A stretch of DNA of 64,000 bases. It comes from Treponema sp. GTDB taxonomy: Bacteria; Spirochaetota; Spirochaetia; Treponematales; Treponemataceae. Where the stretch lies: assembly GCA_016281495.1 (NCBI GenBank), contig JAEEIU010000012.1:186001-250000 (forward strand), read 5' to 3'. Below are positions 50,769 to 59,883 of this stretch, piece by piece (the first letter of the stretch is position 1; each line of letters starts with the position of its first letter). The position numbers and the translations under genes were made by a program. The notes beneath the pieces are model-generated. The model was not told where the DNA came from. It saw only the letters and a list, made by a program, of their open reading frames with translations, and ran no database searches.

Positions 50769-50774
50769 TATAAT
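50769..50774 (+). promoter_or_regulatory. -10 box of the MinD/FlhG-like gene
   Basis: TATAAT at 50769-50774 is seven bases before the ATG at 50782; a -35 is not clear. The box overlaps an earlier in-frame ATG (50773), which argues that 50782 is the real start. Confidence 0.5.
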
Positions 50775-50781
50775 GAAAAAT

Positions 50782-51927
50782 ATGCAGATTATACCAATTG
50801 CCAGCGGAAAAGGTGGCGTGGGAAAAAGTCTTCTCAGTGCGAACCTTGCTATCGCTTTAGGACAAGCAGGAAAGAAAGTTCTTCTTGCAGATTTAGATTT
50901 AGGTGCCTCTAATTTACATCTGGTCATCGGTCAGACTGCCCCCAAAACCGGCATTGGCACATATTTAACGGGTCAGACACCTTTTCAGGACACAATCCAG
51001 CCCACAGACTACGAGAACGTATGGTTCATAGCCGGCGATTCCGAGATTCCAGGGCTGACCTCACTGCGTGCAAGCAAGAAAAACGAACTTATACGTCAGT
51101 TTCTGGCCCAAGACTATGATTACCTCATCCTTGACCTTGGAGCGGGCTCCCACCTGACGATTCTTGACATGTTCCTGCTTTCTCCACAGGGAATCATCGT
51201 AAGCGCCCCAACCGTAACTGCAACACTCAACGGATACCTTTTCCTCAAGAACCTTGTCTTCCGCATGATGTACAATACCTTCAAGAACGGTACTCCGGCC
51301 CACAGCTATCTGGAAACCCTCAAAAAGGACTCATCATCCCTGCAGAGGCTCTACATCCCAAGGCTGGTGGATGCGCTGGAGAAGGTTGACCCGGAAAACA
51401 CGGCACTTTTCCGCTCCAGAATGGCAGAATTCCACCCGCGTCTTGTGCTGAACATGATAGATGACCCGAAAGACGCCGACAGGGCAAACAAAATACGCCG
51501 CTCATGTGCGGAATTCCTTGGCCTTAACCTTGAGCATCTTGGCGTAATGTACCGCGACACCCTTCAGGACAAGGCACTGGCCTCAAGGCTGCCCATAATC
51601 ATCTACAAGCCCCAATCCCTCGTATCCCAGGGAATATACCGCATAGCCGAGAAAATCCTTCATTCAGAGACAATCACCTTTGACAAGGATTATGACATCA
51701 CCCAGGCCAGCGAAACCTCGTTCCAGATTGCAACAGAAGAGGCGGGAGAGGATTTTACCCAAAAGATGGCCTATGTTCAGGAGCTTATGGGAAGCGGAAC
51801 CTTTACCCCGGGAGAACTTGCAGAGACAATCAAGCAGCAGCAGTATGAGATTACCCAGCTTAAAACCGAAAACCTTTTCTTAAAGAAAAAGCTGGTGGAA
51901 GCCGCAAGACAGGGTTTCAAGATTTGA
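50782..51927 (+). CDS. MinD/ParA-family ATPase, FlhG-like
   Basis: 381 residues. The deviant Walker A SGKGGVGKSL begins near residue 9, followed by VLLADLDLGASNLHL and DYLILDLGAGS, as in MinD/FlhG-type ATPases that place division or flagellar machinery. About 60 extra residues form a C-terminal coiled coil (QQYEITQLKTENLFLKKKL). In spirochaetes it could act in flagellar number or in envelope positioning; no flagellar gene is nearby. It is immediately upstream of lgt (30-base gap). Confidence 0.85.
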   Translation: MQIIPIASGKGGVGKSLLSANLAIALGQAGKKVLLADLDLGASNLHLVIGQTAPKTGIGTYLTGQTPFQDTIQPTDYENVWFIAGDSEIPGLTSLRASKKNELIRQFLAQDYDYLILDLGAGSHLTILDMFLLSPQGIIVSAPTVTATLNGYLFLKNLVFRMMYNTFKNGTPAHSYLETLKKDSSSLQRLYIPRLVDALEKVDPENTALFRSRMAEFHPRLVLNMIDDPKDADRANKIRRSCAEFLGLNLEHLGVMYRDTLQDKALASRLPIIIYKPQSLVSQGIYRIAEKILHSETITFDKDYDITQASETSFQIATEEAGEDFTQKMAYVQELMGSGTFTPGELAETIKQQQYEITQLKTENLFLKKKLVEAARQGFKI

Positions 51928-53010: not shown

Positions 53011-53046
53011 GAATTACTTGATATATAATTATTTATGGAGGATTTT

Positions 53047-53898
53047 ATGAAGAAACTATTGATTGCCGCTGCAATGGTCGCACTTACCGGCCTAGCCTTT
53101 GCATTTGACACCGAGGATTTTACCCTTTCCGGTTCTCTTTCTAAATACACCCGCACAGATTACACAATCGTAAGCAAATTCGGCACCACATACCGCTCTG
53201 CATCCGTAAAATACGTGCATAACTTTGACACCCTTGGGCGTGAAACCGAATGCTTGGGATATAACTCCAAAGACGCATTGGTCGACAAAATCACATACAG
53301 CTATAATTCAGCAGGAAAACTTGAGGGATCTTTATTCGCAAACGCCGAGGGAAAGAAACTCTGGAGCACAAAAGTTGAATACGACGCATCAGGCCGCATA
53401 AGCTCAGAATCTGAATTTGACCAGGAAGACAAGCTTGCCGGAAAAACCATATTTGAGTACAACGACAAGGATGTTGCCAAGGGAAAAGACACCAAGGTAA
53501 CGGAATCCTACTACGACGGCGACGGAAAACTCCTGACACGCACCATCTCCACCAGGGACAAGCAGGGAAAGGTCACGGAATCATGCCGCTATTACGGTGA
53601 CGGAAGCCTGGATCAAAAGGATCTCTACACCTACCAGGACAACAAGCTCACCCAGATTGAATATGTGGAAAGCGACGGAAAAACCCATTCACGCCATGTT
53701 TACCGCTATGATACCAAGGGGTTCCTCTCAGAAATTCAGGTTTACAACTCTAACAATGTATTGTATCAGAGGGAAATCTACAAGCCAGACGCTCAGGGAA
53801 ACCCGACTACAATCAGCGTTTACGCAGTTTCCGAGAAATTCGGCGGCACAGTATCTGAATTGCAGACTCAGTCCGGATTTACATACACATACCGCTAA
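53047..53898 (+). CDS. Secreted protein with YD-like repeats
   Basis: 283 residues: signal peptide 1 to about 20 (ending LAFAF). The mature part has about eight imperfect repeats of 22-25 residues built on Y(E/R)YD..G(R/K)..E....D (for example VEYDASGRISSESEF), like single RHS/YD repeats that form beta-strands. It has no toxin or enzyme domain. The start at 53047 is fixed by GGAGG (53037-53041). Role inferred: surface or periplasmic binding scaffold. Confidence 0.7.
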   Translation: MKKLLIAAAMVALTGLAFAFDTEDFTLSGSLSKYTRTDYTIVSKFGTTYRSASVKYVHNFDTLGRETECLGYNSKDALVDKITYSYNSAGKLEGSLFANAEGKKLWSTKVEYDASGRISSESEFDQEDKLAGKTIFEYNDKDVAKGKDTKVTESYYDGDGKLLTRTISTRDKQGKVTESCRYYGDGSLDQKDLYTYQDNKLTQIEYVESDGKTHSRHVYRYDTKGFLSEIQVYNSNNVLYQREIYKPDAQGNPTTISVYAVSEKFGGTVSELQTQSGFTYTYR

Positions 53899-54021: not shown

Positions 54022-56343
54022 ATGAAATCAATAGGAATTAAGCTTGCAGATGGTTCCTTTTATCCTATTATCAGGGAAGGCAGCGAAGAAACTAAAACTC
54101 TGGATGTAACAACCGTAAAAGACAACCAGACCACCGTACAGATTGATTTATACAGCTCGGAATCCGACAGCATGGCTGATGCCCAGTATGTAGACAGCCT
54201 TGAAATCACACATTTAAATCCTCACCCCAACGGAGAGCCCAACCTTCATCTTGAGGTAAGCCTGGACAAGGACAACAAGCTGCGTGCAAACGTCATTGAC
54301 CCGGAAACAGGCCTTTCAAGCACCACAAAAGTAACGCTTGTCTCACGCACAGAGGCAGAACGCAATAATCCCGCCAATTTTTCCATTGGAGACCAGGACA
54401 CCGTCTCTCAGATGGCGGACACCACAAATAAAGAAGACTTTAATTTTGACAACCTTTCAAGCTCCGACAATCCGCTTGAGGCACAGGTTTCAGATGAATT
54501 TGTAAGCGACGACCAGGTTTTTGCCCCGGACAACATGATGGCAGACAAACCCGTAACCGACGACGACCTCTTCATCTCACCGACATTCCCGGAAGCCGAT
54601 GAACCCAAGGCCAACATCAGCGGAGATGAAATCAAGGACATAGATGACATTATCGTGGACAACGACGGAACAAAATTCTCGTTTACCGAAGAACCAGCTC
54701 CGGAAAACACGGATGACATTGAGGTAGAGGAACCGTTTGAGGGAATCACCGCAGACAATTTCGTAACGATAGAGGGAACAACCGGAGAAAACGGATTTGA
54801 ACTCCCGGAAGACATAGACACAATCATGCCGCCGGATACGTCAGCTCAGGAGGCCCCAACAGAGGAAACAGTTTCCGATGATGACATTGCCCCCACCTCA
54901 ATTACAGATGATTTCCCGGAAGATGAGGAAAGCGAGGGTGCATTCGACCTTGATGCAGACAATTTCCTTACCATCGACGGCAGCGAGCACACAGGCGAAA
55001 ACGGATTTGAAGTTCCCCCTGAACTGATAAGCTCAGACCTTTATGATGACCCGGCAAACCCACCAAAAGAAGACATCTCTGAAGCACTTTCTGATGTAGA
55101 CAGCGATATCAAAACCGAGGAAAGCAAGGATGAGACAAACTACGACCTTCCTGATTTTGACGACATAGAGACGGACACCTCAAACGTTACCATAGAGGCC
55201 GCAGTTCCACCTGTAGACGTTGACATCCAGGAGGAAACACCGGAAGACAACGAGCAGACAATAGCAGAAGAGGCGGCAGCGTTTGACATTGATGCCCCGC
55301 GAGAAACCATAGAACCGACAGTTCATCAGACCAACCTTACAGAAGATCTCCCGGACTTTGGGGAAGTTGACCTGACCACATCCGATGATGATATAGATCT
55401 TCCTGATTTTGATGATTTGCCGGAAACCCCACAGAGTACAAGGGATGCCATAAGGAGTGAGCTTCCTGATTTTGAAAGCCCATGGCAGACATCGACGGAG
55501 CCTGTAACCAGATCTTCTTCAATTCCTAACTTTGAGCTTCCCGATTTTGACGATTCACCGGCATTAAATGATGATTCATTCCCGATTTCATCCAGCACAA
55601 ACGATGACAGTGCATTTGGTGATGACTTCTTTGATGATGCCGACACGGATTACAAGAAGGCAAAGGACCGCGAGAAATTTGAAGAGGAAACAGAACAGGG
55701 CAAGGGAAAGAACAAGCGCTATGCCCTCATCTGCCTGATCTGCACGATTATCTGCCTTATCATTGTCGGACTCATTCTATTTATCTTCCCGACAAAGCTC
55801 AATCTGTTTAAGAAGAATAACCAGACACAAATCGCAACATACAGCAGCACTGTAAGCTCAAGCACAGAAAACAATTCGGTAACCAGCTCTGACACGACAG
55901 CCAGCAGCTCAACAGACACAACAAGCTCTGATACCCAGACAGAAAAAGTTGTCCCGAATACAACCGCAGACAAGAACAGCTCAACAGACAGCACCGAAAC
56001 AAAGCCTGCGGAAACCGGAACAAGCGTACAAAAGACCGAACAGGCTGTATCCAAGGACGAAAGCCAAAGCAAGAACAACGTTCAGCCGGAAGCCATAAAG
56101 GGAAAAGAGGACACCATCGTCATTGCCACAACACCATCTGCTGTGGTCCCGACACGCCCGGAAAAAAGCGGAAATGTCCCTGCGGATATCCGTTACCAGG
56201 TTGTATGGGGTGACACTCTCTGGGACATCTCAAACGCATATTACAAGAACCCATGGCGTTATCCTCGAATCGCTGAATACAACAGCATAAAAAATCCGGA
56301 CTTCATCCGCTCTGGCCAGATTCTCTTGATACCTGCGGAGTAA
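54022..56343 (+). CDS. Hsp70 substrate-binding-like domain, acidic linker, membrane helix and LysM
   Basis: 773 residues. Residues 1 to about 110 match the beta-sandwich substrate-binding domain of DnaK/Hsp70 (SIGIKLADGSFYPII; DNQTTVQIDLY; LNPHPNGEPNLHLEV; DKDNKL), but there is no ATPase domain. Residues about 110-560 are acidic and probably disordered, with repeated LPDFDD and TGENGFE(L/V)P motifs. One helix (about 566-590), a Ser/Thr-rich stretch and a C-terminal LysM (about 723-773) follow. With the helix inward-to-outward, LysM would bind wall while the Hsp70-like part stays cytosolic. It heads a wall-gene run with the lytic transglycosylase. Confidence 0.82.
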   Translation: MKSIGIKLADGSFYPIIREGSEETKTLDVTTVKDNQTTVQIDLYSSESDSMADAQYVDSLEITHLNPHPNGEPNLHLEVSLDKDNKLRANVIDPETGLSSTTKVTLVSRTEAERNNPANFSIGDQDTVSQMADTTNKEDFNFDNLSSSDNPLEAQVSDEFVSDDQVFAPDNMMADKPVTDDDLFISPTFPEADEPKANISGDEIKDIDDIIVDNDGTKFSFTEEPAPENTDDIEVEEPFEGITADNFVTIEGTTGENGFELPEDIDTIMPPDTSAQEAPTEETVSDDDIAPTSITDDFPEDEESEGAFDLDADNFLTIDGSEHTGENGFEVPPELISSDLYDDPANPPKEDISEALSDVDSDIKTEESKDETNYDLPDFDDIETDTSNVTIEAAVPPVDVDIQEETPEDNEQTIAEEAAAFDIDAPRETIEPTVHQTNLTEDLPDFGEVDLTTSDDDIDLPDFDDLPETPQSTRDAIRSELPDFESPWQTSTEPVTRSSSIPNFELPDFDDSPALNDDSFPISSSTNDDSAFGDDFFDDADTDYKKAKDREKFEEETEQGKGKNKRYALICLICTIICLIIVGLILFIFPTKLNLFKKNNQTQIATYSSTVSSSTENNSVTSSDTTASSSTDTTSSDTQTEKVVPNTTADKNSSTDSTETKPAETGTSVQKTEQAVSKDESQSKNNVQPEAIKGKEDTIVIATTPSAVVPTRPEKSGNVPADIRYQVVWGDTLWDISNAYYKNPWRYPRIAEYNSIKNPDFIRSGQILLIPAE

Positions 56344-56345
56344 CA

Positions 56346-58433
56346 TTGATCAGATCAATTATCAACGGACCGCTGTATTCTATTGCCCTCATCGTTCTGC
56401 TTGCATTACCAGTGTCTTCATGTGCACGTACTGCAAAGACAGACAGCAAATATGGCCCGGATGCCCTGTATTTTGAGGCACTCCAAAAGATTCAGACAGA
56501 TGAATACAACGATGCCGTTACGCTCCTGAAAAAATCCGTCAAGAATTCCAATCCATTTGTCGCAAAACTGTCCGCACAGACTCTTGTAGAGATAAGCAAG
56601 GATTCCCTTGGAGCCGCAAAGGACCTGTACGAAAAATTTCCCGACGAGGACTCACTGGAGATATACCTTGAGGAACTGATCAGGGAGGAAAAATACGACG
56701 ACATACTCAAGCTCACAGAGGAAACAGACAAAGAGGAAGCTTCCGACAATGTGATTTATTGCAGGATCAGCGCGCTTCAAAACAAAAAGGACCCTTCTTT
56801 CGCCACGGAATATGATGAATGGTGCCTGTTAAAGCCATTTGGTGCAAAGCATTATGCAATCTACCAGAACATACTTGAATCATCCAAAACCAGCACGGTA
56901 AAACCAAGCGAGATTCAGATATTCCGCGCCCTTGTCTATGAAAGGGATTGGTCACCGGCAGAGATAAAGGCAAAGGAACTCGTCAAGCAAAAGAAAAACC
57001 TTACCCCCGCACTTATGAGCGACATCGGAAAGGCACTGGTCAACGGCTCAAAGAATTATGGCACGAATGCGGCACTGCTTGATGACGTAAAGGATGGTCT
57101 TGATCCGGACATTCTTTTTTACAATTATTTTTATCAGGGACGGCTCTACGACAAACAGGAAAAGGACAATAGCCTGGCCATGGACCGTTTCCTTAGCGCC
57201 ATGAATACCGCACCTACCCCGGAGCTTTTTGACAACGCACTCTGGTATTATCTTAACAGCGCACTCAAGGATTCCATTGCACGTGCCATTTTTGAACTTA
57301 GCGTTTACCGCTCACGATGGGCAGACCCCGAATATTTTGACGATTTTCTGGACACGCTTTCCTTAAGGCTTTTGACCAAGCATCTCTGGCAGGACTATTA
57401 TGATGTTGCCAAACTGATTGACGGTTATGCCACAAACGAGACAGCCGCAAAATACGCCTATGTCGCAGGTTCCCTGATTGAAAACCGTTTCCTGAATCCA
57501 AAGACCACATCCACGGAACAGGCAAGCAGGACGCTTTACGAGAGGGCACTCCACAGCGACACGAACATCTACCACAAGTTCGCCGCCGCAAGCAAACTGG
57601 GCCTTTCAACCGAAAAAATAGAAAAAGAACTTGAGACATTCTGCCCCAACCGTGATTTTACCGCCAATGCCGACGTAGAGCTGGTTTTAAACGGCTATGT
57701 TGACTACGAGCTTCCCGAATACATTTATCCCTTGTGGGAGAAAAATATCGATTCAATTGGATTTGAATGCAGCAAGAATATCGCAACTTATCTAAGGGAC
57801 TATGCGCAAAAGGAAGACAGCTCATATTATACGTTAAGCCTGCGAATCGCCGCAAAAAAGGCAAACAAATGCGAGTGCCCCCTGGACAAGGAAATACTAA
57901 AGCTTACATTCCCCAGGGACTTTACCTCACTCGTAAACAAATACACAGAGGAATTCAAGCTGGACGAATCCCTTGTATATGCCATAATCCGAAGTGAAAG
58001 CTATTTCGCACCCGAAGTAAGTTCATGGGCTGGAGCAGTCGGACTCATGCAGCTGATGAAGCCTACCGCAACCGACATTTCAAAAAAATTCAAGACGGAT
58101 GATTTTGACCTGCTTGATGAAGAAACCAACGTAAAGTTCGGCACCTATTACATTTCAGAATTGAACGAGCGACTTAACGGTGACATGATTCTTGCAATTT
58201 TCTCCTACAATGCCGGCATCGGAAGGGTCAGGACACTTGTAAAAAACGCCAAAATCGAATTTGAAAGGGAAAAGCTTCCCAACGACATTTTCCTTGAGGC
58301 ACTTCCCATAGAGGAAACCAGGGATTACGGAAGGAAAGTAGTAGGCTGCACGGCGATGTATTCCTATCTGTACCATGACAAGAACCCTGGAGAAGTCTTC
58401 CACGATCTGATGGGCTGGGAAAACAAAAACTAA
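56346..58433 (+). CDS. Lytic transglycosylase lipoprotein (SLT domain)
   Basis: 695 residues: lipobox ending at Cys26 (LPVSSC), a long helical-repeat region (about 35-520) like the superhelix of Slt70, and a C-terminal SLT domain (about 538-640). The catalytic Glu is in AIIRSESYF, followed by GAVGLMQLM and SYNAGIGR. It cleaves peptidoglycan with formation of 1,6-anhydro ends. It starts with TTG (56346), five bases after GGAG, two bases after the previous stop. Confidence 0.9.
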   Translation: MIRSIINGPLYSIALIVLLALPVSSCARTAKTDSKYGPDALYFEALQKIQTDEYNDAVTLLKKSVKNSNPFVAKLSAQTLVEISKDSLGAAKDLYEKFPDEDSLEIYLEELIREEKYDDILKLTEETDKEEASDNVIYCRISALQNKKDPSFATEYDEWCLLKPFGAKHYAIYQNILESSKTSTVKPSEIQIFRALVYERDWSPAEIKAKELVKQKKNLTPALMSDIGKALVNGSKNYGTNAALLDDVKDGLDPDILFYNYFYQGRLYDKQEKDNSLAMDRFLSAMNTAPTPELFDNALWYYLNSALKDSIARAIFELSVYRSRWADPEYFDDFLDTLSLRLLTKHLWQDYYDVAKLIDGYATNETAAKYAYVAGSLIENRFLNPKTTSTEQASRTLYERALHSDTNIYHKFAAASKLGLSTEKIEKELETFCPNRDFTANADVELVLNGYVDYELPEYIYPLWEKNIDSIGFECSKNIATYLRDYAQKEDSSYYTLSLRIAAKKANKCECPLDKEILKLTFPRDFTSLVNKYTEEFKLDESLVYAIIRSESYFAPEVSSWAGAVGLMQLMKPTATDISKKFKTDDFDLLDEETNVKFGTYYISELNERLNGDMILAIFSYNAGIGRVRTLVKNAKIEFEREKLPNDIFLEALPIEETRDYGRKVVGCTAMYSYLYHDKNPGEVFHDLMGWENKN

Positions 58434-58477: not shown

Positions 58478-59221
58478 ATGAAAATGAGAAAACTTTTATT
58501 GGCTGCCCTGATGGCGGCAACAACCTTTGCATTTGCACAGGATTATTACAAGACAAATGTACTCGCATCGTATTATGGCGCTGAACTGCAGGGAGCAAAA
58601 ACTGCCAGCGGTGAAACCTTCAACATGTATGACTATACTGCGGCCCACAATACCATGCCTTTCAACACTCTGGTCAAAGTCACAAATATTTCCAACTCAA
58701 AATCAGTAATCGTACGCATAAACGACCGTGGGCCATATTCACTTGGCCGCGAGATTGACCTGTCCCAGACAGCCGCAGATGCATTGGACATGACAAGGAC
58801 CGGAACCGCCCGCGTGAACCTGGAAGTAATCCAATGGGGAACAACCAACGGTCCCACAACTGACGTTTCAGGCGTAACCGAGACACCGTTTGTAGTAACC
58901 GAAACCCCAATTGATCTTGAAGAAAAGCATTACGACGTGCAGCTTGGTGCATACACCGAATTTGCAAATGCCCAGATCATGGCAAACCGTCTTTACAAGG
59001 CAGGATTCTCCAACATCGCATACCAGAGCGAAAACAACATAACCCGTGTTGTAATCCGTGATGTAAGCGCATCAGATTTGGACTTTACTGTGGCATCACT
59101 GAAGCAGAACGGTTTCTCTGATTATCTTGTACGCCAGAGAAAGCTTGACGCACCCGGAACAAGAGAGACAATTACCACAACTACAACAAGAACAACAACT
59201 TCAATAGGTGCAGAAAAATAA
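58478..59221 (+). CDS. RlpA-like protein with SPOR domain, paralogue 1
   Basis: 247 residues: signal peptide 1 to about 21, an RlpA double-psi beta-barrel (about 27-120; [33 protein letters not shown] with the catalytic-type Asp) and a SPOR domain (about 147-220; [17 protein letters not shown]) that binds denuded septal glycan. The end is Thr-rich. RlpA family members cut or bind stem-less glycan strands at division sites. No ribosome site; GATAAT lies six bases before the ATG. The next gene is a tandem paralogue. Confidence 0.88.
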
Positions 59222-59223
59222 GC

Positions 59224-59883
59224 ATGAAGAAATTCCTCCTGATTACGGCATTCGTACTTACACTCATCACACCGGCCTTTGCCGACTATGTGTATAAGTC
59301 CAGTGCCGTAGCGTCTTATTATGCGGACAAATTCCACGGACGCAAGACGAGCAACGGAGAAATATTCAACATGTATGCACTCACCGCCGCACACAAAACC
59401 CTTCCGTTCAACACAAAGGTAAAGGTCACGAACCTAAGCAACGGCAAATCCGTAATCGTAAGGATAAATGACCGCGGACCGTTTGTTAAGGGACGTGAAA
59501 TAGACCTGTCAAAAGCGGCGGCGAGCAAACTGGACATGATAAAATCCGGAACCGCAAAAGTAAAGCTCACGATAATATCCTCAGACAGTTCAGGTTCAAC
59601 AAAGCAGGTGGAAAAATGGAAAACCGCCGACAAGACAAAAACCTGGGACATTCAGCTGGGGGCATTCTCAAAACGTAGCAATGCGGAGGCCATGGTAAAG
59701 AGGCTTCAGGATGCGGGATTCAAAAAATATCTTGCGTATCAGAAAGTCGGCAACCTTACCCGTGTTGTAATCCGTGACATCGCAACAGATGACGTGCAGG
59801 GTTATCTGGACAGGCTGGAGAAAAAAGGCTTTACCGATTACTTTGTGCGTGAAAGGGCAAAAGTCAAAAACTCAACAAAATAA
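59224..59883 (+). CDS. RlpA-like protein with SPOR domain, paralogue 2
   Basis: 219 residues, the same plan as the preceding gene: signal peptide 1 to about 20, double-psi barrel (about 23-115; [16 protein letters not shown] intact) and SPOR (about 138-210; [17 protein letters not shown]). It starts two bases after the first copy's stop, so the pair arose by duplication and is co-translated. Both keep the active-site pattern, so neither looks like a decayed copy. Confidence 0.88.

Follow-up and report, generated by a model that had tools for sequence, protein, structure and literature searches.

A 773-residue protein encoded in a 64,000-nucleotide stretch of Treponema sp. DNA (hereafter the window) begins with a homologue of the Hsp70 substrate-binding β-subdomain (SBDβ) and continues through an acidic region and a single membrane helix to a LysM domain. 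We found that it belongs to a family, here termed SBD-TM, whose genes are linked to that of a flagellar lytic transglycosylase (LT), and that the window's member, the SBD-LysM protein, has a short motif in common with the collar protein FlcA. In spirochaetes the SBD-TM protein probably has a part, so far unstudied, in building the flagellum. The domain and the LT are each already known. The literature searched has no description of the SBD part, nor of the combination, how far it has spread or its link with the flagellar LT.

An Hsp70-type substrate-binding domain and its membrane-anchored frame

The SBD-LysM gene (54022–56343, + strand) has a Shine-Dalgarno-like gaggtag before its ATG. Its first 108 codons (54022–54345, +) encode the SBDβ homologue. 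Residues 3–138 match positions 393–526 of the Pfam HSP70 model with 27.7 bits against a cut-off of 20.6 (E 1.1e-6), and a phmmer search of PDB sequences gave as top matches solely Hsp70 substrate-binding domains (best 6.1e-9, residues 3–105). A profile built from 15 diverse relatives, 13 of which match HSP70 individually, matches the DnaK SBD at 2.3e-15. The AlphaFold model of residues 1–122 (pLDDT 80) matches Hsp70 SBDs in two fold searches (Foldseek E about 3e-8, TM about 0.8; VIA-align Z 14–16). Judged by these sequence and model comparisons, the N-terminal domain is a true homologue of Hsp70 SBDβ. An earlier note, made from the sequence alone, had read the N terminus as an Hsp70 SBD and named structure prediction as a check; Pfam, the PDB sequence search, the family profile and the predicted fold all bear it out, and the model of residues 1–122 has the Hsp70 SBD fold and no different one.

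Compared with the Hsp70/DnaK SBD (PF00012; PDB 1dkx, 4r5i), the family has the same β-sandwich, with homology over residues 3–105, and keeps the hydrophobic pocket and Gln433, but it is membrane-anchored and lacks the ATPase, the interdomain linker and the helical lid. Pfam found no actin-like nucleotide-binding domain in the 773-residue frame, as the earlier note had held, and the HSP70 match begins at model position 393 of 599. In the alignment the protein begins at the position of DnaK 398–399, so that both the ATPase and the linker VLLLDVTP are absent. The lid (SBDα) is missing too, since AlphaFold predicts the chain beyond residue 108 to be disordered, save for a helix of 4–5 residues. 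In a tree of the domain, in which several rows are long and the deep joins unsure, a branch with support 100/98 separates the five Hsp70s from the family, which stands apart on its own; this is consistent with a single separate family.

By its origin the domain would suit one half of a split Hsp70, in which a separate ATPase subunit, or the ATPase of DnaK, serves the SBD, and in Borreliaceae a full-length short Hsp70 gene does lie about 4 kb from the SBD-TM gene. We consider this highly improbable. The linker that docks an SBD to its nucleotide-binding domain (NBD) is missing, and a split partner was ruled out in the host genome, which has one complete DnaK and no orphan NBD; its second HSP70 match is MreB. 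The Borreliaceae Hsp70 (L065, 11292–12752) has 486 residues and is without most of the lid. As a separate observation, residues 273–383 of chain 5F in the ciliary doublet microtubule (PDB 6u42; 381 residues in the model) match the SBDβ model at rank 25, possibly another Hsp70-type SBD in a structural role.

Residues 109–545 (54346–55656, +) form an acidic, presumably cytoplasmic region that is predicted to be disordered (pLDDT <50 almost throughout). A motif search located five [DE]LPDF repeats in it, at residues 375, 442, 459, 480 and 505 (55144–55554, +). The single membrane helix spans about residues 567–589 (55720–55788, +), as indicated by hydropathy, K/R flank counts and an AlphaFold helix at 546–588. 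The LysM domain occupies residues 725–771 (56194–56334, +; PF01476, 39.5 bits against a Pfam cut-off of 20.9; pLDDT about 90). The layout given in the earlier note, an acidic LPDFDD region followed by one membrane helix and a LysM, is thus what motif search, hydropathy and Pfam recover. A full-length AlphaFold model, run for self-docking in the groove, had an overall pLDDT of 46, with the SBD poorer than in the domain model.

Spread of the family and linkage to the flagellar transglycosylase

The LT gene (56346–58433, +) begins 2 nt after the SBD-LysM stop, and its product, which has an SLT domain, matches the BB0259-family model NF047373 with 573.9 bits against a cut-off of 234 (E 6.5e-172). 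Periplasmic flagella need BB0259 in order to cross the wall, and BB0259 binds FlgJ (PMC8517470). Two putative RlpA-like frames lie downstream of the LT at 58478–59883. The LT and the RlpA pair are the neighbours that the earlier note had named in proposing a role in wall remodelling. A wall-cutting enzyme does adjoin the gene, but because that enzyme is of the flagellar BB0259 type the setting is one of flagellum assembly, not of wall remodelling in general; moreover, the RlpA genes are not adjacent to the family member in the T. pallidum locus.

We examined the linkage in 296 genomes across the phylum, 99 of which carry an LT above the NF047373 curated cut-off. The SBD-TM gene lies directly upstream of the LT, often overlapping it, in 94 of the 97 decidable genomes, a count that includes two fragmented assemblies with only the C-terminal part of SBD-TM upstream. 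Contig ends cut the locus in G251 and G267; G268, G277 and G294 are not linked, and the SBD-TM gene is absent from the latter two. All 31 sampled Borreliaceae carry a diverged member that overlaps or adjoins the LT. This member matches the family HMM at E 1e-3 to 1e-10 in small ORF sets and at 5.7e-8 in a whole-genome search of G247, and a chance match was ruled out by the profile–profile comparison (probability 96.5, E 8e-10) together with the positional conservation in 31 of 31. The Borrelia gene upstream of bb0259 resembles the SBD-LysM gene in its profile-related N-terminal domain, acidic stretch and one membrane helix, and it overlaps the LT start, but it is much diverged, with about 65–80 residues aligning, and has no LysM. 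It is expected to be BB0260, which no paper in the literature searched names. Families f9 and f10, both flagellated, keep the SBD-TM gene beside ftsK or uppP, and no BB0259-type LT above threshold was found in them; the role of the protein is therefore not wholly LT-dependent, and the protein is not merely an accessory of the LT.

A genome-collection scan and a phylum-wide search turned up relatives all through the order as well as in the phylum's deeper families, so the phylogenetic spread, a point that the earlier note had left for checking, is that of a spirochaete family and not of a one-off fusion. (Names attached to f-groups, namely Borreliaceae for f6, Leptospira, Brachyspira and Sphaerochaeta-like, were inferred from gene order and absence of flagella.) By sequence, the conserved core is SBDβ plus the membrane helix. 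Members range from about 160 to 880 residues, owing to an acidic tether that can have as few as about 25 residues or as many as 600. LysM was ruled out as a core feature: it is missing in f6, f7, f8 and f11 and in the LT-linked copies of f5 and f16. The LysM end reported by the earlier note is accordingly present in the 773-residue protein and optional in the family, being absent from Borreliaceae and several other families. Families f5 and f16 carry two copies, a short one without LysM adjoining the LT and a LysM-bearing one elsewhere. Such a pair, a short LysM-free copy at the LT and a LysM-bearing one elsewhere, was seen in genome G006 (L053, 3830–4813; L067, 7808–8416) and in genome G292 (L134 and L086). 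In f10 and f13, much-diverged proteins of 160–175 residues occupy the same position; the f10 members reach E 0.02–0.04 in the family search, and the assignment of both groups rests more on position and inspection (LGFKLADGRIFPLL in f10) than on score. The Borrelia, f10 and f13 members have no Pfam match.

A T. pallidum-like genome (G056) encodes a 310-residue member. Two published primers for the tp0041-42 poly-G tract (PMC7864442) match the DNA just upstream of this gene without mismatch, which identifies it as TP0042. It is an orthologue of the SBD-LysM gene by gene order (mcp, SBD-TM gene, LT, mnmG) and domain layout, but unlike the 773-residue protein it has a tether of only about 35 residues and no LPDF repeats. 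TPASS_0042 has been listed only as a LysM protein (PMC4403809), and the literature searched names TP0042 only as such and as lying near a poly-G tract. The tract (L052, 4362–4371) falls within the end of the gene for a chemotaxis receptor and precedes the TP0042 homologue by about 140 bp. It is among those tested for length variation (PMC7864442), so that expression of TP0042 might vary.

A TPR membrane protein is divergently transcribed beside the SBD-TM gene at L065 8016–9398, L069 7154–8497, L101 754–2247 and L102 1964–3376. Since this gene adjoins the SBD-TM gene in Borreliaceae, f13, f17 and f30, the neighbourhood looks old.

Co-occurrence with flagella and the motif common with FlcA

FlhA is present in all sampled members of the class except 12 genomes of f12, and all 12 of these are without FlhA, the LT and the SBD-TM gene. 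As f12, the one non-flagellated group, is a single clade, this counts as one event. The transpeptidase set of f12 is reduced, and at least five of the 12 genomes keep a transpeptidase PBP, so that loss of peptidoglycan synthesis does not by itself account for the missing gene. The SBD-TM gene is also absent from some flagellated genomes: those of f24 and f29, assumed to be Leptospira and Brachyspira, where only DnaK was found, and G277 and G294.

The acidic region of the SBD-LysM protein contains [DE]LPDF[DE] four times, against 0.0014 expected in residue shuffles. DNA encoding this motif occurs at five sites in the 3.2-Mb host Treponema genome, four in the SBD-LysM gene and one in flcA, and the backward-pattern control gave none. 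FlcA is a turbine-like part of the spirochaete collar that touches the stators (PMC8609358). Like the SBD-LysM protein, FlcA (BB0326; NF047371) has on its N-terminal side an acidic stretch containing DLPDFDD, followed by a single membrane helix and then by a domain at the C terminus, and its motif sits N-terminal to the helix, on the same side as in the SBD-LysM protein; unlike it, FlcA has no SBDβ, its C-terminal domain is TPR, and no homology was seen outside the short motif. No collar-protein model (FlcA, FlbB) is among the NCBIfam matches of the SBD-LysM protein; an FlbB model matched in one relative, far below the cut-off. Elsewhere among treponemes the motif again picks out FlcA and the SBD-TM protein together with a third acidic protein, besides some chance matches in unrelated proteins, and for this reason only the host genome's own count is used as evidence. 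The third protein (L157, L162, L167 and L173) has DLPDFD near its start and an N terminus like NELESYGVWVKN. No NCBIfam model matches it, and it may have a partner in common with FlcA and the SBD-LysM protein. The T. pallidum member and many relatives lack LPDF repeats or the acidic region, so that the repeats were ruled out as a core feature. The acidic LPDFDD region on which the earlier note had placed a cytosolic partner is therefore real in the window's protein but no part of the family core, and within the host genome the motif is common to FlcA only.

The same loci could be read as encoding a general cell-wall or division linker, a bitopic protein of the RodZ or FtsN kind tied to an LT–uppP–ftsK cluster and not to flagella. 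LysM binds the wall, and the gene heads or borders a uppP and/or ftsK cluster in Borreliaceae, Spirochaeta-like f5, f9 and f10; the general plan of cytoplasmic domain, one helix and periplasmic tail is also that of RodZ and FtsN-type linkers. We think this reading unlikely: the LT is of the flagellar type, the non-flagellated clade lost the gene even where a transpeptidase PBP was kept (at least 5 of 12 genomes), and the motif is common with FlcA. In place of a RodZ-type helix-turn-helix or a SPOR domain the SBD-LysM protein has SBDβ and LysM, and RodZ models align only to residues 551–692. RodZ kinship was ruled out, this overlap being limited to the membrane and a low-complexity stretch.

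Topology, the cleft and a proposed role in flagellum building

LysM domains bind peptidoglycan, which lies outside the inner membrane, and the SBD should therefore be inside. The sequence GKGKNKR precedes the membrane helix. Of 82 rows, 53 have more K/R on the N side of the helix, 14 have fewer and 15 have the same number on both sides, in weak agreement with the positive-inside rule. We infer an N-in/C-out topology.

The cleft was compared in 34 aligned family members, using DnaK numbering. Ile is found at the I401 position in 33 of the 34 and Gln at the Q433 position in all, and the pocket positions remain hydrophobic (V436 to V/A/I, I438 to I/V/L, I472 to L/I/M/V). Several other residues differ from DnaK: F426 is replaced by L, T403 by L and M404 by A, A429 is V or kept, and R467, the lid latch of DnaK, is N, K or another residue. 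The L1,2 loop carries the signature GI[KR]LADG in place of the DnaK GIETMGG, with K/R at 402 in all 34 members, A at 404 in 31 and D at 405 in 33. This pattern fits an open groove with altered specificity, and it could equally mark a new docking loop; loss of the DnaK arch residue M404 may mean that peptides are no longer clasped in the groove. The earlier note's cytosolic client-binding module tied to the wall is in its architecture what the layout of SBD, one helix and LysM implies, and client binding itself appears plausible from the conservation of the cleft.

The SBDβ fold may instead have been reused as an ordinary protein–protein adaptor. Peptide binding would then be lost, and the family-specific surface (the GIKLADG loop, the invariant K/R402 and the near-invariant D405) would dock a fixed partner in the same flagellar or wall context. 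The strongest family-specific conservation does fall in the L1,2 loop, unlike E402-T403-M404-G405 of DnaK, the lid and linker are absent, and the Borrelia, f10 and f13 members have diverged beyond recognition by Pfam. However, the hydrophobic character of positions 401, 436, 438 and 472 and the retention of Q433 throughout the main set are what a working groove needs, and we regard the adaptor as possible but doubtful.

We judge the chances to be about even that the SBD-TM protein is a bitopic inner-membrane linker, with an ATP-independent Hsp70-type groove at a cytoplasmic flagellar site and its outer part on the wall or the transglycosylase. A cytoplasmic N-terminal SBDβ without ATPase, linker or lid would be followed by an acidic tether, short in some members and long in others, then by one membrane helix and in most lineages by a LysM in the periplasm. 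With those three elements gone, peptide binding, if there is any, would not depend on ATP and would exchange fast. The groove might recognise a segment exposed on a flagellar protein that is cytoplasmic or close to the membrane, at the motor base or collar, while the outer part would grip peptidoglycan and/or the co-encoded LT, such that the wall would be opened only where a periplasmic flagellum is being built. More tentatively, the protein could be a flagellum-specific receptor, derived from an Hsp70 SBD without ATPase or lid, that couples recognition of the cytoplasmic motor or collar to local peptidoglycan opening by a dedicated transglycosylase. If true, such a receptor would be an overlooked component of the periplasmic flagella of spirochaetes.

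If a whole bacterial class has kept an Hsp70 client-binding module that has no ATPase, this module would show what SBDβ can do alone. Its adjacency to the flagellar LT in treponemes and Borreliaceae offers a candidate answer to how spirochaetes confine wall cutting to flagellar sites, in a family that occurs in relatives of the syphilis and Lyme bacteria. The collar shows unassigned density (PMC8609358), and the SBD-TM protein is a candidate for its still-unassigned parts.

Two further genes of the window lie upstream of the SBD-LysM gene. The one directly upstream (53035–53898) encodes a protein with a YD-repeat-like stretch, and three genes upstream (50773–51927) lies that of a MinD/FlhG-like P-loop ATPase with a long C-terminal extension, which could bear on flagellar placement.
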